Made by a program: the position numbers and the translations under genes
Assembly (NCBI GenBank): GCA_031273105.1
Contig: JAISSN010000064.1
Coordinates: forward strand, 1 to 37,345
Direction of reading: 5' to 3'
Length of the DNA stretch: 37,345 bases
DNA from: Holophagales bacterium
GTDB lineage: Bacteria > Acidobacteriota > Holophagae > Holophagales > Holophagaceae
Part shown: positions 3,176 to 34,950 of the stretch, piece after piece
How positions within the stretch are numbered: position 1 is the first letter of the stretch
Layout: each line of letters starts with the position of its first letter
The notes under the pieces: generated by a model
What the model was told of the DNA's origin: nothing
Seen by the model: the letters and a program-made list of their open reading frames with translations, nothing else
Database searches by the model: none

Positions 3176-3643
3176 ATGGACAAGATATCTCTGGACAGTT
3201 TTGGTTATACCCGCTTCAACCCGCGAGATTTTTCCCGGTTGAAGGACGCTCTGAACGCTGCAGAAGAAGAATCCATAAACGCTTCAGAAGACGAGGACGC
3301 GGTCATTATCTCAGCCGACGCGAAGCTCAAGCCCAATCTCGACTTTAAGAACATGACCAGCAGAGAACTGATCATTACAGCCATGTATTTGGAATCCACG
3401 GGAGTAATCAGCGCGGAAGAAGCTGGTGTCCTTAGGAGCCAGGCATTGGCCTGCGGGAATGCTCCAAAGGGCGGGCCTGCGTCTTCATATTATGATCTTG
3501 ATTCTCCGGTCAGGTTTAACTTTGTTAAGCAAATCACGGGGGCGATCAAACTGACGCGTAACCATATCCCGGAAGCTGATAGCCCAAGAGAGGCCGGGCC
3601 GTTGGAATCAGCTCTTGAAAAAATCCTGGCCATGAGCGCCTGA
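3176..3643 (+). CDS. Hypothetical protein, 155 aa
   Basis: ATG preceded by ggtggag; no recognised domain. Confidence 0.65.
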   Translation: MDKISLDSFGYTRFNPRDFSRLKDALNAAEEESINASEDEDAVIISADAKLKPNLDFKNMTSRELIITAMYLESTGVISAEEAGVLRSQALACGNAPKGGPASSYYDLDSPVRFNFVKQITGAIKLTRNHIPEADSPREAGPLESALEKILAMSA

Positions 3644-3832
3644 CTATAGCATTTCCGGTTCACAACCGCGTTTCGCAACCAGGGAGGTCAGCGATGCCGT
3701 ATTCGCGGTTTTGAACTGGAAAGTAGCGCAGTGCGCCTGGACTTACTTTTTTTTATTTGAAGATGAGAATTGCGCCGCGTTTGAGCCTATCAATGTAACC
3801 TGAGCTATTTCGGGGGGAAAGTAGCGCTATAA
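3644..3832. repeat. MITE-like repeat family B/C
   Basis: Starts CTATAGCATTTCCGGTTC, internal TTTTGAACTGGAAAGTAGCGC, ends GGGGAAAGTAGCGCTATA; ends are inverted (TATAGC..TTTCC). Confidence 0.7.
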
Positions 3833-5451: not shown

Positions 5452-5595
5452 ATGAAAAGAGCAACCAGAGCCAGCGCGACAAGGGCACAGCGCCTGTCAG
5501 TCCGCGCTCTTTTCGTTTATATAAATGAATTATATATAATTGGGGGGGGGGGGGAAACTCTTGCAATATCAGCACTTACGAATCACTTAGTCTAA
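5452..5595 (+). CDS. Possible small ORF containing a G13 tract
   Basis: Reads MKRATRASATRAQRLSVRALFVYINELYIIGGGGETLAISALTNHLV*; upstream gggagaag could act as an RBS; no homology recognised. Confidence 0.25.
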   Translation: MKRATRASATRAQRLSVRALFVYINELYIIGGGGETLAISALTNHLV

Positions 5596-5648: not shown

Positions 5649-5704
5649 TCATGGGCGCATTTTGTTTGCCGCAAGGAGGTTTGCCCATGAAAAGGATTAC
5701 CCGC

Positions 5705-5815
5705 GAGCTAATTGCAAAACCTCCCGGAAACATCGCACGCCTGTGCGCGATTCCTGAAAAATGCGGATCTGACGCCCACCTTTCCGGCAAAGCCGGAGGT
5801 TTTGCAATTAGCTCC
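5705..5815. repeat. Palindromic repeat family A, full length (~111 bp)
   Basis: GAGCTAATTGCAAAACCTCCxGG ... CCGGAGGTTTTGCAATTAGCTC terminal inverted repeats. Confidence 0.85.
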
Positions 5816-5898: not shown

Positions 5899-6172
5899 AT
5901 GCGGCTTTTCAAAACCATAGCCTTATGCCTTACAGCCCTTTTTTGCGCGGCGGTTTATGCCCAGGATAAAAGGCGCGTAGCCGTTCTTGAGCCGGAGGGG
6001 AACGAGGCCGTGACAATGATGAACAAGGCCAACGTCAGGGGGGCGCTGACAGAAATCATTGTAAATACAGGAGCATATACGGCGGTCTCCAGAAGCCACA
6101 CAGACCGCATACTAAAAGAGCACGGCTTTCAGAGAGGCGAGCTGTCCGACTCGTCAAGGGCCAAAGAATTAG
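5899..6172 (+). pseudogene. N-terminal fragment of a secreted protein (signal peptide + CsgG/LpoB-like start)
   Basis: MRLFKTIALCLTALFCAAVYAQDKRRVAVLEPEGNEAVTMMNKANVRGALTEIIVNTGAYTAVSRSHTDRILKEHGFQRGELSDSSRAKELG, then sequence becomes Big_2-like in another frame. Confidence 0.6.
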
Positions 6173-6196
6173 GCAACTGTAACAACAAGCGGCCTC

Positions 6197-9767: not shown

Positions 9768-9849
9768 GATATGTTTCATAGAAGCGAAGACCATCTGTGG
9801 AATAGAAAATTGAGAAAGCACATTGAGCTAAAAGCAAATGTCCCTTGAT

Positions 9850-9960
9850 CTGATTGCAAAACCTCCCCCGGGAATATTGCGTGAGCGTGTGACGATTACT
9901 GAAAAACGCGCGTCTTGCGCCTGCGTTCCCGGCAAAGTCGAAGGTTTTGCAATTAGCTCC
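9850..9960. repeat. Palindromic repeat family A, full length
   Basis: TGATTGCAAAACCTCC ... AAGGTTTTGCAATTAGCTCC. Confidence 0.85.
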
Positions 9961-13130: not shown

Positions 13131-13284
13131 TATTTTCGGTTCAAAACCACATTCAGCAGTAGGGATGCTTGAGATGCCATAACTGCGGTTTTGAACCGAA
13201 AAGCAGCGCTGGCGCCAGACCTCATTTTTCAGCGACTGGCACGCTGGCTTGCGATGTTTTCAGAGGTTTTGCAATTACCTCTTC
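13129..13284. repeat. Composite repeat: family B left part joined to family A right half
   Basis: tattttcggttcaaaaccacattcagcagtagggatgcttgagatgcc...gcggttttgaaccgaaaagcagcgctggcgccagacc then catttttcag...ctggcttgcgatgttttcagaggttttgcaattacctc. Confidence 0.75.
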
Positions 13285-14772: not shown

Positions 14773-16158
14773 TTGCCGTCGAATACGAAAGACTATCCCG
14801 TGGATTCCAAAATCAGCCTCAGCACATTTGATTCAATGCCAGTGAGCAAGGCGGTATTTAAAAACGTGATCCCGGCAATAGTATCAATGCTGATGGTGCT
14901 CGTGTACAACCTGGCGGACACGTTTTTCATCGGGCTGACGCGGGACGATTTGCAGGTTGCGGCCGTATCCCTCGCCACGCACGTTTTTATGATATTTATG
15001 ACGTTCGGCACGCTTTTCGGTATCGGCGGCACGTCTGTTATCTCCCGCGCCTTTGGCGCGGGACAGGACGATTATGTAAAAAAGGTTTCGTCCTTTTGCT
15101 TGTGGTCGAGCGTCGTCATAGGCATCGCCATTCCCTTGCTTGCCGCCATTTTTATGGACGACCTGCTGCCTGTGCTTGGCGCCAGCGCAGACACCTGGAC
15201 GCCAACGAAAAACTACCTGAGCATCATTTTGCTGTCTGGTCCGTTTATGCTGGTTGCAGGTTGCTTTTCAAGCATCCTCCGCTCTGAGGGGCAGGCCACA
15301 AAGGCTATGACTGGAATGCTGATTGGAAATATAACCAACGTGGTTCTTGACCCTATCATGATTCTCGGCCTGGGCTGGGGCGTCGTCGGCGCGGCTATAG
15401 CGACTGTTATCGGCAGCATCGTCGGCGCGGCATATTACATTGTCTATTTCCTGCGCATAAACTCTAAATTAAGCATCAACCTCCGGGACTTTTCTATTGG
15501 CGATAGGGTTGCGCTGAATGTTTTTGCCATTGGGTTTCCAGCCTCCCTTGGCCCCATGTTTATGAGCCTGTCACAGATGACCATGAACAGGCTCATGGCT
15601 GGATTTGATGATTTGGCTATCGCCGCCGCAGGCGTCGCCGCTAAGTCAATAATGATCATCTACATGGTGTCCATTGGCTTTTCCCAGGGGATAATGCCCC
15701 TTCTCGGCTATTGCGTAGGCGCGAAAAACTGGCCGCGCTACACGGCAATTTTAAGGTTCTCCGTCATGTCTTCAACCGTGATTTGCATAGCCATGACAGG
15801 CCTGTGTTATCTCTCTAACGAAATGATAATCGGCGCGTTCCTGACGGAAGACGTTTCATTTGATTACGGCGTGCGCTTTGCGAAAATACTGCTGTCAACG
15901 GCCTTTATGTCGGGCGCTTTTTTCTCTATGGTAAGCGCGATTCAAGCAATGGGAGCGTCTGTTCCCGCGCTCATCCTTAACGTATGCCGCCAGGGCGTCA
16001 TCTATATTCCCGCGCTGTTTGCGCTGCGCGCTATTGCGGGAGAGTACGGTTTAATATGGGCCCAGCCTGTATCCGATATCCTGTCGCTGATTCTCGCTGT
16101 TGTTCTCCATGCTTTTGCGTTTAGAAACTGGAAAAATACTAACGTTAAAGCGAGCTAA
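14773..16158 (+). CDS. MATE family efflux transporter
   Basis: IPAIVSMLMVLVYNLADTFFIGLT...GTSVISRAFGAG; 12-TM MATE layout; start codon uncertain. Confidence 0.95.
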   Translation: MPSNTKDYPVDSKISLSTFDSMPVSKAVFKNVIPAIVSMLMVLVYNLADTFFIGLTRDDLQVAAVSLATHVFMIFMTFGTLFGIGGTSVISRAFGAGQDDYVKKVSSFCLWSSVVIGIAIPLLAAIFMDDLLPVLGASADTWTPTKNYLSIILLSGPFMLVAGCFSSILRSEGQATKAMTGMLIGNITNVVLDPIMILGLGWGVVGAAIATVIGSIVGAAYYIVYFLRINSKLSINLRDFSIGDRVALNVFAIGFPASLGPMFMSLSQMTMNRLMAGFDDLAIAAAGVAAKSIMIIYMVSIGFSQGIMPLLGYCVGAKNWPRYTAILRFSVMSSTVICIAMTGLCYLSNEMIIGAFLTEDVSFDYGVRFAKILLSTAFMSGAFFSMVSAIQAMGASVPALILNVCRQGVIYIPALFALRAIAGEYGLIWAQPVSDILSLILAVVLHAFAFRNWKNTNVKAS

Positions 16159-16262
16159 TTGCAAAACCTCCAGCTTTGCTGGAAACGCGGACGCCAGACC
16201 CGCATTTTTCAGAAATTGCGCACTGGCTTGCGATGTTTCCAGGAAGTTTTGCAATTACCTCG
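16152..16262. repeat. Palindromic repeat family A, full length, overlapping the MATE stop codon
   Basis: GAGCTAATTGCAAAACCTCC ... GGAAGTTTTGCAATTACCTC. Confidence 0.85.
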
Positions 16263-16315: not shown

Positions 16316-16888
16316 ATGGCGATGACTGTTGACTCAATCATTGAAGACGCCAAAAAGAAGATGAAGCAGAGCATTGAGACGCTCAGGAAAGAATTGGCCA
16401 CGGTCAGGACGGGCAGGGCAAACCCGACTATTTTAGACACAGTGCAGGTGGAGTACTATGGCTCCACCATGCCTCTCAACCAATTAGCGGGCGTCAGCGT
16501 ACCGGAACCATCCTGCCTGCTGATCCAGCCCTTTGACAAAGGCGCCGTCAAGGCAATAGAAACAGCCATCTTAAAGAGCGACCTGGGCCTTAACCCCGCC
16601 AACGACGGATTGGTCATTCGCCTTCCCATACCTTCGCTCACAGAAGAAAGGCGCAAGGATCTCACCAAGGTGGTTCACCGCATGGGCGAAGACATCAAAA
16701 CGGCCATCCGCAACGTCCGCCGCGACCAAAACGAAAACATCAAAAAGCTGGAAAAGGATAAAAAAGCAGGCCTGTCTGAAGACGCCGCCAAAAAGGCCCT
16801 GGATCAAATTCAAAAGGCAACGGACGGTTATATAAAAGAAGTAGAGGACACGGTTAAACACAAAGAAACAGAGATAATGAAGGTGTGA
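16316..16888 (+). CDS. frr: Ribosome recycling factor
   Basis: KKKMKQSIETLRKELATVRTGRANPTILDTVQVEYYGSTMPLNQLAGVSVPE...LTEERRKDLTKVVHRMGEDIKTAIRNVRRDQNENIKKLEKD; ggagg upstream of ATG 16316. Confidence 0.98.
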   Translation: MAMTVDSIIEDAKKKMKQSIETLRKELATVRTGRANPTILDTVQVEYYGSTMPLNQLAGVSVPEPSCLLIQPFDKGAVKAIETAILKSDLGLNPANDGLVIRLPIPSLTEERRKDLTKVVHRMGEDIKTAIRNVRRDQNENIKKLEKDKKAGLSEDAAKKALDQIQKATDGYIKEVEDTVKHKETEIMKV

Positions 16889-16974
16889 TTGCGCGATGTC
16901 GGAAGACACAAGCAGCCCATCCTGCCATACTTGTAATCAGTGATGAAAACTGAATCGTCCAGGGTTGCGCTACG

Positions 16975-17255
16975 ATGCCATTGAATATAGTTTGCGGCGA
17001 CATTACAAAAATGCAGGTTGACGCCATTGTCAACGCCGCTAACACTGAACTCCAGATGGGGGGGGCGTTTGCGGCGCAATTTTTCAAGCGGCGGGAACGG
17101 AAAAGCTACAGGCAGCCTGCGATAAACTCGCCCCTATACAAACTGGCAAAGCGGTTATCACCGAAGGCTTTGCCCTTCCAGCAAAGCGCGCCATACACAC
17201 GGCCGGGCCTGTTTACCGCGATGGCAAGCAGTTGGCGGCGGGGGATGATACAGTT
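16975..17255 (+). pseudogene. Macro domain fragment, frameshifted at a G tract
   Basis: [30 protein letters not shown]; with one added G it continues [62 protein letters not shown], then ends. Confidence 0.88.
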
Positions 17256-18368
17256 ATGACGCTACAAACTAACGAGAGAAACAATACTGCGTCCGCTCCG
17301 TGGACAATGCAGGAGTTTTTCGCGGGTAGCGGGCTTGTCGCTTATGGCCTTGACGGATTATTTCGCCCCATTTGGTCAAATGACATTTGTGACAAAAAAG
17401 CCGCCGTTTACAGGGCGAACTTTTCAGGTGAGCATTTTGTTCTTGACGATATAAAAAACATCAGCGGCGCTTCCCTGCCGCATGCGCATTTGTCGTGGGC
17501 CAGCTTCCCATGCCAAGATTTATCGCTGGCGGGTTCTTTGAGAGGAATTGACGCGGAGCGAAGCGGGCTTGTTTGGGAGTGGCTTAGGGTTCTTGGCGAA
17601 ATGCCTGAGCGCCCACCCATTTTGTTGATTGAAAATGTAGCGGGGTTGCTGACGGCCGACAAGGGGAAACACTATACCAAGCTGCATCACGCTTTATTGG
17701 ATTTTGGGTATAAGAGCGGCTCTATATTGATTGACGCGGCTCGCTTTGTTCCGCAGTCGAGGCCGCGAGTGTTTATTATCGCCGTTAAGCAGGAAATTCC
17801 AGTGCCGCCGGAACTGCAAGATTTCAGACCAAATTGGTTGCACAGTAAAGCGGTCATTGATTTAGGAGAATCTTTACCAAACTGGATATGGTGGTACGCG
17901 CAAGCGCCCTTGAAACGAAATATCATGTTAGCGGACGTTATAGATTTTAGTTTGCCTTATGACAAAGACCATGTCTTGAAACTCATACCGTCCCGTCACA
18001 AGGAAATCATTGACAGTTTTAAAAATATCGTAGCCGCCGGCTACCGCAGAACACGAAACAGAAAGCAGTGTTTGGAATTGCGTTTTGACGGTGTGGCCGG
18101 ATGCCTTCGGACGCCGGAAGGAGGGAGCAGCAAGCAATTTTTGATTGCGAAACGTAATGGAGAACTCCACGCAAGAGTGATGTCGCCGCGAGAAGCGGCA
18201 AGACTAATGGGCGTCCCGGATAGTTTTGTGCTTCCCGAAAATGCCAACGACGCGTATAAGGCGATGGGAGACGCAGTGGCTGTACCTGTAGCCTCATTTG
18301 TTGGGCGTGAGTTTTTAGTAAAATTAGCAGAGGCGGTTTACGGTGAGCAACGCGGTAAAGCGTCTTAA
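17256..18368 (+). CDS. DNA (cytosine-5) methyltransferase
   Basis: [12 protein letters not shown] (motif I), [11 protein letters not shown] (PCQ), ENVAGLL (ENV), [12 protein letters not shown] track extends to TTG 17232 but ATG 17256 is the more likely start. Confidence 0.95.
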
Positions 18369-18443
18369 AAGCTTTCAGACAGAGCATAACGCCGTAACTA
18401 AAGGCCCACTTGCACTATTGAGTTTGAGGCTAAGTGATTTCCA

Positions 18444-18995
18444 ATGACGGATATGTTTGACGCCAAAAAACGCAGCGAAATTATGGCAAAAGTGCGCAGC
18501 TCCGGCACAACGCCAGAAATCCGCGTCCGTAAACTGCTTCACAGCATGGGCTACCGTTTCCGTTTGCATAGACGCGACTTGCCGGGAAACCCTGACATCG
18601 TTTTACCCAAATACAAGACGGTAATTTTCGTACACGGTTGCTTTTGGCATGGCTGCCCCACTTGTCGGCGCGCAAGAATCAGACCTGTTGCCAATGCGGA
18701 TTACTGGAACGCGAAACTTGATCGCACAATGGCGCGGGACAGGGACAATATCACGGCGCTGAAGCGGGCGGGTTGGCAAATATTGGTCATATGGGAATGT
18801 GAGACGAAAAAGAAAAACCTAAATCTGCTGCTTAAGAAACTACACTCTATATCAAGTTTCGCTTGTGACGCCTGCCTTGCGCCGTCCATAGAACACATGA
18901 AAGAGCCATGCGGTCAGGATTTGCAAGTAAATTCTGACTTAAAGCGTTCGCTTTTTTCAAAGTTTAACCATTCAAAGCCATTTTTTTGCGCGTGA
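18444..18995 (+). CDS. vsr: Very short patch repair endonuclease
   Basis: MAKVRSSGTTPEIRVRKLLHSMGYRFRLHRRDLPGNPDIVLPKYKTVIFVHGCFWHGC...WQILVIWECE. Confidence 0.95.
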   Translation: MTDMFDAKKRSEIMAKVRSSGTTPEIRVRKLLHSMGYRFRLHRRDLPGNPDIVLPKYKTVIFVHGCFWHGCPTCRRARIRPVANADYWNAKLDRTMARDRDNITALKRAGWQILVIWECETKKKNLNLLLKKLHSISSFACDACLAPSIEHMKEPCGQDLQVNSDLKRSLFSKFNHSKPFFCA

Positions 18996-19007
18996 GCGCC
19001 CACCCCG

Positions 19008-19796
19008 ATGCCCGACCCCCTGATTTTTTTATTTCTTTTATTGGCGGCCTGTCTCGCGGGGTTTATAGACGGCGCTGTCGGCGGAGGCGGCCTTATATCA
19101 ATACCGGCGCTGTTTCTGGGCCTCTCCAGCCACCCAACGACAACGATACTTGGCACCAATAAAGTGGTTGCCTGCACAGGGACTACCTTTGCGGCGGCCC
19201 AGTTTGTCCGCAGCCGGGTTGTTCCATTCAGGGAAATGGTTTTCCCGATGCTGGCCGCGGGCATAGGCGCGGCCCTTGGGGCTAAAACGGCTTACTTCTT
19301 TGAAGGGCGCTTTGAAGCCCACCTGCGCCCCGTGATGCTGGCGATGATGATTGCCATGTTGCTCTTTACCTTGCTCAAACCCGACCTCGGCGCTATTCAT
19401 GCTCCAAAGCACAGCAAAAAAAAACAGGCGCTGCTGGCAACGCTTCTTTCCTTAGCCATCGGTTTTTATGACGGCTTTTTTGGCCCTGGAACCGGAACGC
19501 TGTTGATTTTTTTCTTTGTGGCCCTCCTCGGCTTTGATTTTCTGAGGGCCTCGGCCCTCTCCAAAACGGTCAACTGGGCGTCCAACATGGCGAGCCTTGC
19601 CCTTTTTGTCTTTAAAGGCAGTTGGCTGCCTTTAGTGGCCGTAAGCATGGCCGCAGCAAATGGAATTGGCGGCTACCTTGGCGCAAAAACGGCCCTGGCA
19701 AAAGGCAGCAGGTGGGTTCGCGCCCTGTTCACGATAGTAGTAGCGGGGCTGATACTTAGACTGGCCTGGCAGATGTTTGCCGATATTCAAATATGA
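19008..19796 (+). CDS. TSUP/TauE-SafE family permease
   Basis: LAGFIDGAVGGGGLISIPALFLGLSSHPTTTILGTNKV...IGFYDGFFGPGTGTLL. Confidence 0.95.
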   Translation: MPDPLIFLFLLLAACLAGFIDGAVGGGGLISIPALFLGLSSHPTTTILGTNKVVACTGTTFAAAQFVRSRVVPFREMVFPMLAAGIGAALGAKTAYFFEGRFEAHLRPVMLAMMIAMLLFTLLKPDLGAIHAPKHSKKKQALLATLLSLAIGFYDGFFGPGTGTLLIFFFVALLGFDFLRASALSKTVNWASNMASLALFVFKGSWLPLVAVSMAAANGIGGYLGAKTALAKGSRWVRALFTIVVAGLILRLAWQMFADIQI

Positions 19797-19838
19797 CATA
19801 ATATTAGAGAGTATTCACACAAAGATAGATTAGTGGCA

Positions 19839-21498: not shown

Positions 21499-23628
21499 AT
21501 GATAAAGGCAATAAAGCAGTTCATTAAAGAAAACAAAGCTGTTTTTGAAGCGTACGGAGAGGAATCAACTACTGATACGTTCAGAGGCGAGCTTAACTTT
21601 GAAGCAGGTAAGATTTTTTTCGTTTTTTTAATAACCTCAGTGGTAATGCTGCCATATATTCCCAATGATTTGAAGCTGCACCAATACCCCTGGCTGGTTA
21701 TTCCCCTTAGAATAGGGTTCAGTGTTTTAAGCGTCGCCATGATTTTACTAAAATATACAAAACGTTTCAGGGGCTGCCCGCTAAATTTATTGATGGTGAT
21801 GGTGGCTTACCTCTATACTGCCATGGGGATATATAGCGCGTCGGCAGGCCAGCACGCTTCAATATATCTGGGCGCGTTTTCCTTTATTTTAACGATTCCT
21901 GTATTCGCGCCTTTCCCGCTGAAATTTAAAATTACCGGCTCCTTACTTTCAATCGCTACTTTTTTTATAGTGAGTTTATTTATAGGATTGGACTATTCAA
22001 GTCCGAATATTATGTACGGTATAAACGGAATTATTACGTCGCTTACCCTTTGCCTTGTGTTTTCCTTTGCTCAGGATCGCATGAGATACAAGACATGGAA
22101 GCAGAATCAACAATTAAAAGAGGCGATAACCCAAAGCGAAGAAGATTTTCGGACAATTTTGGAACTATCCATGAAAGCGGAAGTCGCCTCCATGGCGAAA
22201 AACACCTTTCTCGCCCGCATGAGCCACGAGATACGCACGCCCATGAACGCCGTTTTGGGCATGAGTGAACTGGCGCTGCGGGATTACGGCTCGCCGAAAT
22301 GTCTCGAATATATACAGGGCATCAAGAGCGCGGGTCAGTCTCTGTTGACCATCATCAACGACATTCTCGACTTCTCCAAAATTGAATCCGGTAAGATGGA
22401 AATCAATGCCTCTGCGTATGAATCAAGCTCTCTGCTCAACGACGTGCTGACGATGATCCGTATCAGAATGGCGGAAAAGCCCATTGAGCTTATTGTAGAG
22501 GCGGACCCAGACATTCCCTGCGTAATGACGGGCGACTTCGTTCGTATTAAACAGGTGCTGCTCAATCTCCTGAGCAACGCCGTGAAATACACCGTTGAAG
22601 GAAGCATAAAATTTTCCTTTTCCGGCCAGGCCATCGGCAGCGGAGCCATACTCCTTACATTTGTCGTCGCCGACAGCGGCATAGGCATAAAGAGTGAGGA
22701 TATGCCTAAGCTGTTCGGCGAATTCGCGCGCGTTGACCAAAAGCGCAACACTTCAATCGAGGGTACCGGCCTGGGGCTGTCCATAGCCCGCAGCCTGTGC
22801 AGGGCCATGGGCGGCGACATTACCGTGACCAGCGAGTATGGCGTCGGCTCAACCTTTACAGCCACGCTGATACAGTCTGTGAGCGAATGGAAACCCGCGG
22901 AAGATATAGCCGTCGTTACGGCGGCTAGCCCCGGTGCGAAACGGGCGTCCTTTATCGCGCCTGAGGCCGAAATATTGGTTGTTGACGATTTCTCCAGCAA
23001 CCTGATGGTGGCCGAGGGCTTACTCGCTCCGTACAAAATGCGCGTTTTTACCTGCATGAACGGCAGGGAAGCCATAGAGCTGGTTAAGGCGCGTCATTTT
23101 GATCTTGTGCTGATGGATCACATGATGCCCGAAATGGACGGCATGGAGGCCACAGCCGCCATCCGCGCCCTGGGCGGACGCTTTGCGGAATTGCCCATAG
23201 CGGCTCTGACCGCCAATGTGGTCTCTGGTATGAAGGAGAAATTTCTGGCGGGCGGCTTCAATGATTTTCTCGCCAAGCCCATTGACACAGAGGATTTGGA
23301 CACCGCGCTGAAAAATTGGATTCCGGCGGCAAAACGGCGGGGTACAGACGGCGAAATAGCTGCGGTTGCCAAACCACAACCAAGCCAGCCTAGCCGGGAG
23401 CGCGCCCCGGAGGAGGCGCCGCCGCGCGACGGGCTAACAGAATTGAAAGAAATTTTGGAGGCAAAGGATATGGACAGGATAGACGCCGCCCTGGCTGAGT
23501 TGCAAAACCACAACCTCTCCCCCAAAACCCGCGCGGCTGTGACCGACATAGCCATACACGTTCTCTTCGGAAACTTCCAAAAGGCGGCGGAGTGTCTTAA
23601 TTCCTTGATTGATCCTGGCAAACGGTGA
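21499..23628 (+). CDS. Hybrid sensor histidine kinase (TM region, HisKA, HATPase_c, REC, C-terminal helical domain)
   Basis: FLARMSHEIRTPMNAVLGMSELAL; GTGLGLSIARSLCRAMGGDITV; EILVVDDFSSNL...LVLMDHMMPEMDGMEA. Confidence 0.95.
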   Translation: MIKAIKQFIKENKAVFEAYGEESTTDTFRGELNFEAGKIFFVFLITSVVMLPYIPNDLKLHQYPWLVIPLRIGFSVLSVAMILLKYTKRFRGCPLNLLMVMVAYLYTAMGIYSASAGQHASIYLGAFSFILTIPVFAPFPLKFKITGSLLSIATFFIVSLFIGLDYSSPNIMYGINGIITSLTLCLVFSFAQDRMRYKTWKQNQQLKEAITQSEEDFRTILELSMKAEVASMAKNTFLARMSHEIRTPMNAVLGMSELALRDYGSPKCLEYIQGIKSAGQSLLTIINDILDFSKIESGKMEINASAYESSSLLNDVLTMIRIRMAEKPIELIVEADPDIPCVMTGDFVRIKQVLLNLLSNAVKYTVEGSIKFSFSGQAIGSGAILLTFVVADSGIGIKSEDMPKLFGEFARVDQKRNTSIEGTGLGLSIARSLCRAMGGDITVTSEYGVGSTFTATLIQSVSEWKPAEDIAVVTAASPGAKRASFIAPEAEILVVDDFSSNLMVAEGLLAPYKMRVFTCMNGREAIELVKARHFDLVLMDHMMPEMDGMEATAAIRALGGRFAELPIAALTANVVSGMKEKFLAGGFNDFLAKPIDTEDLDTALKNWIPAAKRRGTDGEIAAVAKPQPSQPSRERAPEEAPPRDGLTELKEILEAKDMDRIDAALAELQNHNLSPKTRAAVTDIAIHVLFGNFQKAAECLNSLIDPGKR

Positions 23629-24404: not shown

Positions 24405-25790
24405 ATGAGCTGGCAGGTCCAGGCCGCTTCCCTCGCGAACAGCGATTTTCTCGCCCGCATGAGCCACGAGATACGCACGCCCATGAACGCCGTTTTGGGC
24501 ATGAGCGAATTGGCGCTGCGGGATTACGGCTCGCCAAAATGTCTCGAATATATACAGGGCATCAAAAGCGCCGGTCAGTCTCTGCTGAACATCATCAACG
24601 ATATTCTCGACTTTTCCAAAATTGAATCCGGCCGCCTGGAATTAGTGTCCTCGCCATACGAAACGAGTTCCCTGCTAAATGACGCGCTGACCATGATCCG
24701 TATCCGAATGGCTGAAAAACCCATTGAGCTTATTGTAGAGGCGGACCCAGACATTCCCTGCGTAATGACGGGCGACTTCGGTCGTATCAAACAGGTGCTG
24801 CTCAATCTCCTGAGCAACGCCGTGAAATACACCGTTGAAGGAAGCATAAAATTTTCCTTTTCCGGCCAGGCCATCGGCAGCGACGCCATACTCCTTACAT
24901 TTGTCGTCGCCGACAGCGGCATAGGCATAAAGAGTGAGGATATGCCTAAACTGTTCGGCGAATTCGCGCGCGTTGACCAAACGCGCAACACTTCAATCGA
25001 GGGTACCGGCCTGGGGCTGTCCATAGCCCGCAATCTGTGCAGGGCCATGGATGGCGACATTACCGTAAAGAGCGAATATGGTAAAGGCTCAACCTTTACG
25101 GCCACGCTCATTCAGTCTGTGAGCGACTGGAAACCCGCGGGGGATATGACCGTCGCCGAGGCGCTGACTACTGTAACGCAACAGGCGTCATTCACAGCGC
25201 CGGAAATTGAAGGAGTGGATATTGCCGCGGGAATGGCCATGGTAGGATGGCAACCGGGCCGTTACCGGAAGCTTTTGCACATTTTCCGCAAAGACGCGGA
25301 GGCTGGGTTCGCCCTGCTCGAAGCAGTCCCCGACGATTCCAGCCTGCCTTCATTCACCACTTTTGTACACGCTTTGAAGAGCGGTCTGGCCAATATAGGC
25401 GCAAAGACGCTGTCCCAGTGGGCAGCCACGCTGGAGAGCGCGGGGCGCGGCGGGGATATGGTCGCAATCCTGGACGGACTGACCCCTTTCAGGGAAAAAC
25501 TGGCCGCGCTGATGGAACGGATAGACGAGATAACGGTTGCTGTCCAATCCGGTCAGGCAAGCGATGAAAACGCCTCGGAGGAGCAGCTGCGCGAAGCCGC
25601 GACAGAATTTAAGGATGCTCTGGAGGCAAGGGATATGGACGGGGTGGAGGCTGCTCTGGCCAGGCTGCAAGCCCTCTCGCTTGCGCCGAAATTCCAGGAG
25701 GCCGTGGCCGACATAGCAAAACACGTTCTGTTCGGGGACTTCAAAAGAGCGGCCCAGACGCTAAGTTCTTTGTTTGAGTCCGGCGGCTGA
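24405..25790 (+). CDS. Histidine kinase catalytic part with Hpt domain
   Basis: HisKA/HATPase as in the upstream paralogue; FTTFVHALKSGLANIGAKTLSQWAATLE is Hpt-like. Confidence 0.9.
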   Translation: MSWQVQAASLANSDFLARMSHEIRTPMNAVLGMSELALRDYGSPKCLEYIQGIKSAGQSLLNIINDILDFSKIESGRLELVSSPYETSSLLNDALTMIRIRMAEKPIELIVEADPDIPCVMTGDFGRIKQVLLNLLSNAVKYTVEGSIKFSFSGQAIGSDAILLTFVVADSGIGIKSEDMPKLFGEFARVDQTRNTSIEGTGLGLSIARNLCRAMDGDITVKSEYGKGSTFTATLIQSVSDWKPAGDMTVAEALTTVTQQASFTAPEIEGVDIAAGMAMVGWQPGRYRKLLHIFRKDAEAGFALLEAVPDDSSLPSFTTFVHALKSGLANIGAKTLSQWAATLESAGRGGDMVAILDGLTPFREKLAALMERIDEITVAVQSGQASDENASEEQLREAATEFKDALEARDMDGVEAALARLQALSLAPKFQEAVADIAKHVLFGDFKRAAQTLSSLFESGG

Positions 25791-33643: not shown

Positions 33644-34787
33644 TTTACGCAATTTTTTTATTTGGATTATAAGCATTTGGCTTGTATCCGTGTTTTCCAA
33701 TTTAAATTTTCATGAAAAACCGGCTGACGACATTCCTACACCCCCACCGCCCGCGTACATTGACGTAACGATTGTGGCCGTTGGGGATCTGATCAGCCAC
33801 CAGGACGTTCAGAGCGCCGCCAGATACGCCGAAAACGGATGGGCTTCCCTCTGGGAAGAAATCACGCCCCTTTTCAAAAGCGCCGACCTCGCCATGGCCA
33901 ACCTGGAAACGCCTATAGCTCCTAACACTGGCAAGCCGGGAATCCCGTTTTGTTTTAACGCATCAAACGATTTGGCCCAGGCCCTGAAAGAGACGGGCGT
34001 GGGCCTCGTATTCACGGCCAACAACCACGCCTATGACCAGAACGTAAAAGGCGTGGCCGAAACCCTTGAACACCTTGACGCCAGCGGCGTCAAGTACACA
34101 GGCAGCGGTTTAAATCGCGGCGCGGCTGAAAGCCCCATAATTATTGAATTGCGGGGCGGGGTCAAGGTCGCCGTACTCGCCAGGACGGATATTTTTAACA
34201 ACAACCTCAACCAGCGGGATGACCGCCCCTGGGTGGCGGCTTTAGACATATACAGCGACGAGCGAGCTGTTAAAGAAATACGCCAACAGGCTGACGCCGT
34301 AATTATCGGCGTCCACTGGGGCAACGAGTACCACATTCGCCCCAGCCAGCGCCAGAGGGAAATTGCGGCGCGGCTCATAGCAGCCGGCGCGGACGCAATC
34401 GTGGGGCATCATCCGCACGTGCTTCAGCCCTTTGAATGGGTTGAGTCCGGCGGACGCAAAGGCGCAGTTGCCTTTTCGCTGGGCAATTTTTTAAGCAACC
34501 AGGACAGGATGTACAAACCCGCGAGCGACGCGCCGGAGGGAGGCGACAGCCGGGACGGCGGCGCAATGATAATCACGCTGCGCAAAGACCAGGAAGGCGT
34601 CAAATTGCTGGACGCGCGCGTGGAACCCCTTTGGACGGACAATAATTGGGCGGCCCATAACAGCGGCAATGACGCAAAGAGGGTCGTCCGCGTCCTGAAA
34701 ACCACGCCCGGTCAGCGCGGCGCTGAAATGGAAGACCTGCTGGCGCTAAGGAGAAAACACGCGCTGGAGAGGCTTTATGGCGATTGA
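33627..34787 (+). CDS. CapA family (poly-gamma-glutamate synthesis-like) protein
   Basis: VAVGDLISH...ADLAMANLETPI...FTANNHAYDQNVKGVAETLEHLDASGVKYTGSG...HWGNEY...IVGHHPHVLQPFE; ATG 33627 overlaps the upstream gene. Confidence 0.92.
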   Translation: MALKRNLRNFFIWIISIWLVSVFSNLNFHEKPADDIPTPPPPAYIDVTIVAVGDLISHQDVQSAARYAENGWASLWEEITPLFKSADLAMANLETPIAPNTGKPGIPFCFNASNDLAQALKETGVGLVFTANNHAYDQNVKGVAETLEHLDASGVKYTGSGLNRGAAESPIIIELRGGVKVAVLARTDIFNNNLNQRDDRPWVAALDIYSDERAVKEIRQQADAVIIGVHWGNEYHIRPSQRQREIAARLIAAGADAIVGHHPHVLQPFEWVESGGRKGAVAFSLGNFLSNQDRMYKPASDAPEGGDSRDGGAMIITLRKDQEGVKLLDARVEPLWTDNNWAAHNSGNDAKRVVRVLKTTPGQRGAEMEDLLALRRKHALERLYGD

Positions 34788-34950
34788 CTATAGCGTTTCC
34801 GGTTCAAACCCGCGTTCAGCAGTCAGGAATGCTTGTGATGCAATAATTGCGGCTTTGAACCGGAAAGTAGCGCTGGCGCTAAACTTCATCTTTTTCCACT
34901 AGACATAATTGAATTACGTAATAACGCTAATATTTAGGGGAAGCGCTATA
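34788..34950. repeat. MITE-like repeat family B
   Basis: CTATAGCGTTTCCGGTTCAAACCCGC ... GCGGCTTTGAACCGGAAAGTAGCGC ... GGGGAAGCGCTATA; terminal inverted ends TATAGCG(C)TTCC. Confidence 0.7.

Follow-up and report, generated by a model that had tools for sequence, protein, structure and literature searches.

The window that we analysed is the whole stretch of 37,345 nucleotides. It contains frr, the gene for ribosome recycling factor (16316-16888; Pfam RRF, 1.9e-67), and a tauE-like sulfite exporter gene (19008-19796; Pfam TauE, 3.6e-40; 82% identical in the sister genome G001), which are the left and right neighbours of a block of 2119 bp (16889-19007; no strand assigned). Both genes, and all features described below for the block, are on the + strand. 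The block carries two pieces of a macro gene separated by a run of Gs, a C5 cytosine DNA methyltransferase (MTase) gene, remnants of a restriction gene of the DUF4928 type, and a gene for a Vsr mismatch endonuclease that runs into an interspersed repeat. The last 298 bp of tauE were also found duplicated on another contig of the same assembly (window 19509-19806 versus G000:C182:3779-4076, L150; 96.6% identical).

Other irregularities were noted elsewhere in the window. Over a stretch of 732 bp, two neighbouring histidine kinase genes are 91% identical (22185-22915 and 24425-25155), the mark of a recent duplication or conversion. Between 5899 and 8890, an ORF that begins as that of a secreted protein (at 5899) gives way near 6180 to a long ORF that lies in a different frame and encodes Ig-like repeats; this may be a further gene that was broken or recombined. 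Upstream of the ORF at 5899 lie 13 consecutive Gs (5542-5554). Interspersed repeats of about 100 bp, mostly intergenic, were present at 3643-3822, 5704-5814, 9847-9960, 13132-13283, 16152-16262, and 34785-34893.

From its start at 16975, the macro gene first runs in an N-terminal frame (16975-17058), which contains the GDIT loop and NAAN and comprises 28 codons up to an ATG at 17056-17058; this part was recognised by the macro domain profile (1.4e-11) and by alignment to the intact L069 macro gene. A second frame (17067-17231) matched the same profile (2.5e-27) and ends with GPVYRDGKQ, where homology stops. The alignment of the window DNA with the L069 gene reaches ...GGCAAGCAG (17231) and goes no further; after the G tract the two are 86% identical in amino acids. 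L069 is a Syntrophorhabdaceae metagenome-assembled genome named Nt197P3, Nt197 referring to the termite Neocapritermes taracua (PMC7024585). The truncation is seen directly: the profile is covered over positions 1-86 of 172 only, split over two frames, a count that includes the part before the tract, which also belongs to the macro gene. The initial annotation had put the macro domain at about half length. The stub shares the N-terminal GDIT, NAAN, and GGGVCGAI motifs with MacroD-type macro domains (O-acetyl-ADP-ribose deacetylases; PF01661), its nearest solved relatives being 2x47 and 4iqy, but it differs from them by the absence of the C-terminal half and by its broken frame, and no complete fold of this type is encoded in a single frame. 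The missing half carries, in intact macro relatives, the SSGIYGYP loop. This loop has a phosphate-binding role in macro domains. We looked for the C-terminal half in the window and in the assembled genome and did not find it, nor did the genome contain any other macro match.

The break in frame coincides with a run of eight Gs (17058-17065), the first of which is the last base of the ATG, in agreement with the ATG followed by seven Gs to which the frameshift had initially been ascribed. Macro relatives have at this point an ATG, 9 nt forming three Gly codons, and GTTTGC, while the window has an ATG, 8 nt, and GTTTGC; exactly one base is therefore missing. The frame that follows the tract is open from 17049 to the stop of the MTase at 18368, so that one added G would indeed join the macro and MTase sequences in a single ORF, as had been proposed, except that this ORF would start at 16975 rather than at the internal ATG. 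In its present state, the first frame forms an ORF of 94 codons (16975-17259), the TGA of which overlaps the ATG of the MTase (ATGA, 17256-17259).

Comparison of the window with the L069 macro gene gave 10, 9, and 32 differences at codon positions 1, 2, and 3, respectively. This third-position bias holds both before and after the G tract, and the dN/dS ratio was about 0.14-0.21. These substitutions show that selection acted on the macro gene until recent times, and its lesions are therefore recent.

We considered that the true sequence might have nine Gs, eight being a sequencing or assembly error. There would then be a single ORF, in which the stub would still be truncated and would probably be a passenger. 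A single-base difference in a homopolymer is a typical assembly error and the species is represented by one assembly; however, a run of 8 bases is short for a short-read error, and even with a ninth G half of the macro gene would be lacking. We consider this explanation unlikely.

The MTase gene (17256-18368) encodes 370 amino acids from the ATG at 17256. It matched Pfam DNA_methylase (PF00145; 1.2e-48) and TIGR00675 (over the cut-off), and its translation contains the conserved motifs of C5 MTases, read as PCQ, ENV, and QSRPR. Its closest relative, encoded by a viral contig (L079), is 54% identical, while the best relative in the sampled phylum reached 45%, and no MTase of this kind was found in 76 other genomes of the family. 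Relatives start 6-16 residues before motif I and ATG 17256 gives 20; this is most likely the codon from which the MTase is translated. The ATGA overlap could perhaps allow coupled translation from the frameshifted upstream ORF.

Is the run-on from the macro frame into the MTase meaningful? The probability of an open, in-frame spacer by chance was about 0.22 for the 24 nt to ATG 17256, the likely MTase start, and about 0.09 for the 75 nt to MQEFF, and the continuity is thus not striking. A natural family of macro-MTase fusions was rejected, because none of the 68 loci of MTase relatives had a macro match or a nearby macro gene, meaning that the architecture is not conserved. Two individual candidates were also discarded: L076, which matched the macro sequence and the MTase start, has the translation of an ordinary macro protein, and L027, an ORF of about 400 amino acids with a macro domain, is by its sequence not a methyltransferase.

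It had also been suggested that slippage in the tract controls an N-terminal extension of the MTase. If so, the G8 run would be a phase-variation or recoding switch, adding half a macro domain to the MTase in some cells. The homopolymer coincides exactly with the frame change, no stop interrupts the downstream frame before the end of the MTase, and the macro codons on either side of the tract were under selection, all of which would fit such a switch. Yet the extension would be half a macro fold devoid of the phosphate-binding loop, it occurs in no MTase relative, and an in-frame run-on has a 9-22% probability of arising by chance. Furthermore, the longest G run at this site was 5 among the 25 macro genes that were read and 3 in all those with MGGGVC. 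As G runs of more than 5 were absent at this site from all the macro relatives that we checked, the tract is not conserved. The suggestion thus received no positive support, and we regard a switch as very improbable. The same low credence applies to a related scheme with two modes of translation, in which eight Gs would lead to termination and reinitiation through the ATGA at 17256-17259 and nine Gs to a fusion of the half-macro domain with the MTase; if it were true, DNA methylation would be phase-variable. Most likely, the macro frame runs into the MTase by a coincidence of reading frame, and the locus serves as a warning that a frame continuing across a homopolymer does not necessarily imply regulated fusion.

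The relatives of the MTase also clarified the nature of the genes downstream. On the viral contig L079, a DUF4928 gene and then a Vsr gene come after the MTase gene, and the same order was read on a Serratia plasmid (L170); four other plasmids (L168, L169, L171, and L172) have the MTase followed by DUF4928. DUF4928 bears the name REase_II in PADLOC, where it counts as a Type II restriction enzyme. In the window, a frame opening at GTG 18343 overlaps the end of the MTase gene, its position and overlap being those of DUF4928 in intact modules, and encodes about 25 codons (18343-18417) that matched a profile of DUF4928 N-termini. This remnant is short, and its E value of 0.013 applies to a search space consisting of the window and shuffled sequences, in which it outscored 2000 shuffles and about 1100 window segments; a Pfam search of the remnant gave no match. 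What is probably the C-terminal end of this gene (18417-18437) reads IEFEAK-stop just before Vsr, where relatives end in DPSLKIEFRQ-stop. The simplest reading is that the restriction gene lost about 0.8 kb by internal deletion. No DUF4928 match was found elsewhere in the genome itself, in a search run without a positive control, and a search of viral contigs returned solely the contig from which the query came. Compared with the modules of L079 and L170, the window thus has the same strand and gene order, with DUF4928 overlapping the MTase end and Vsr downstream, but it differs by the internal deletion of the DUF4928 gene and by the macro stub upstream. No intact restriction endonuclease gene, as expected of a Type II restriction-modification (R-M) system, lies beside the MTase. 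The initial proposal that an MTase/Vsr module had inserted into a macro gene comes close to the evidence in placing a broken macro gene next to the module, but the latter is not a plain MTase and Vsr pair: it is a Type II R-M island from which DUF4928 has been deleted.

The native part of Vsr (18444-18848) matched Pfam Vsr (5.3e-32) and, over its residues 1-120, TIGR00632. The ORF itself encodes 183 residues and ends at 18995, the TIGR00632 match stopping at residue 120. Most of this C-terminal extension is supplied by a palindromic interspersed repeat (18849-18975) of about 120 bp, from which the last 45 or so residues mostly derive. The four genomes of the genus that were searched all have this repeat; in the present genome, one well-kept copy gave 52 matches, full or partial. 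Another copy lies in frame within moaA on contig C82 (G000:C82:7404-7530, L033), about 40-45 residues being added to each of the moaA and vsr proteins, and a further one was located at G000:C117:25077-25201 (L034). The decayed copy at the end of Vsr, when examined as a hairpin, folded no better than shuffled sequences. Rickettsia-type palindromic elements sit inserted in protein genes. The present repeat, from another organism, may be likened to them in type, since it is palindromic, interspersed, and present in frame within coding genes (the end of vsr and moaA).

We also determined how frr and tauE are arranged in related genomes. In the sister genome G001 they are separated by 15 bp, and the distance was at most 280 bp in 14 of the 20 family genomes in which frr was read out (G001 included); it was 778 bp in one, and in the remaining five no tauE was seen after frr on the fetched stretch. 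The empty site among sisters is that of the one usable genome, G001, which is 69% complete; G002 and G003 had neither an frr nor a tauE match and are therefore uninformative. The block as such is directly seen to be absent from these relatives. Because frr and tauE adjoin in G001 and in most of the family, the whole 2.1-kb block (16889-19007) would most simply be extra DNA in this lineage, and the macro stub itself would be part of it. The expectation that an intact macro gene follows frr in related genomes was not borne out, since none was seen in any relative that we looked at, and the search for the missing macro half, mentioned above, had no better outcome. No tRNA that could have served as insertion site was present in the window. 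The heptamer TTGCGCG directly 3' of the frr stop (16889-16895) is repeated near the right edge (18986-18992). This possible direct repeat gives no more than a hint of a target duplication: by chance, the exact first 7-mer would recur with a probability of about 0.3%, and some shared 7-mer would occur with one of about 3%.

Taken together, these observations are best explained by a dead macro stub lying beside an R-M island that lacks its restriction gene, with a coincidental run-on, the whole resulting from ordinary genome decay; we would put the probability of this reading at roughly 0.86. The 2.1-kb block between frr and tauE contains a MacroD-type macro gene reduced to its 5' half, and a Type II R-M island. 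The 3' half of the macro gene would have been replaced at 17231 by the DNA that brought the island, one G would have dropped from the macro Gly tract, and an internal deletion of about 0.8 kb would have removed the DUF4928 gene, leaving a solitary MTase with Vsr. The MTase, probably translated from ATG 17256 and perhaps aided by ATGA coupling, would methylate a single cytosine motif, with Vsr as the likely repair enzyme for the T:G mismatches produced by its deamination. We infer the order of these events, since no genome was found with an intermediate state, either an intact macro gene at the site or an island with intact DUF4928. Within this explanation, the macro gene may already have been truncated when the block arrived, rather than having been disrupted at the site by the R-M DNA. 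The absence of both macro gene and MTase from the site in G001 and the family, and the presence of TTGCGCG near both outer edges of the block, would agree with this, but the repeat is only 7 bp long, and the third-position bias, with a macro gene functional until recently, is compatible with either order. We view an earlier truncation as a serious possibility, somewhat short of even odds.

Whatever the order, the ORFs of the MTase and of Vsr are both intact and no restriction enzyme gene adjoins them. They would remain as a solitary pair with predicted activity. Pairs of a C5 MTase and Vsr that lack a restriction enzyme are already known. Solitary MTases may descend from degenerate R-M systems, and vsr-like genes have been proposed to stabilise them (PMC12907096). 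In Caulobacter, loss of the MTase ScmA while the Vsr-like protein VsrA stays lowers fitness (PMC12907096). The window resembles this system in having an MTase and a Vsr without a restriction enzyme. It differs in that the Caulobacter genes are not adjacent, whereas those of the window are, with a remnant of the restriction gene between them. The pattern agrees with the idea that solitary cytosine MTases are retained with the help of Vsr (PMC12907096), and the window clearly illustrates the way in which a solitary methyltransferase may originate, with the restriction gene deleted, its ends still visible, and MTase and Vsr intact.
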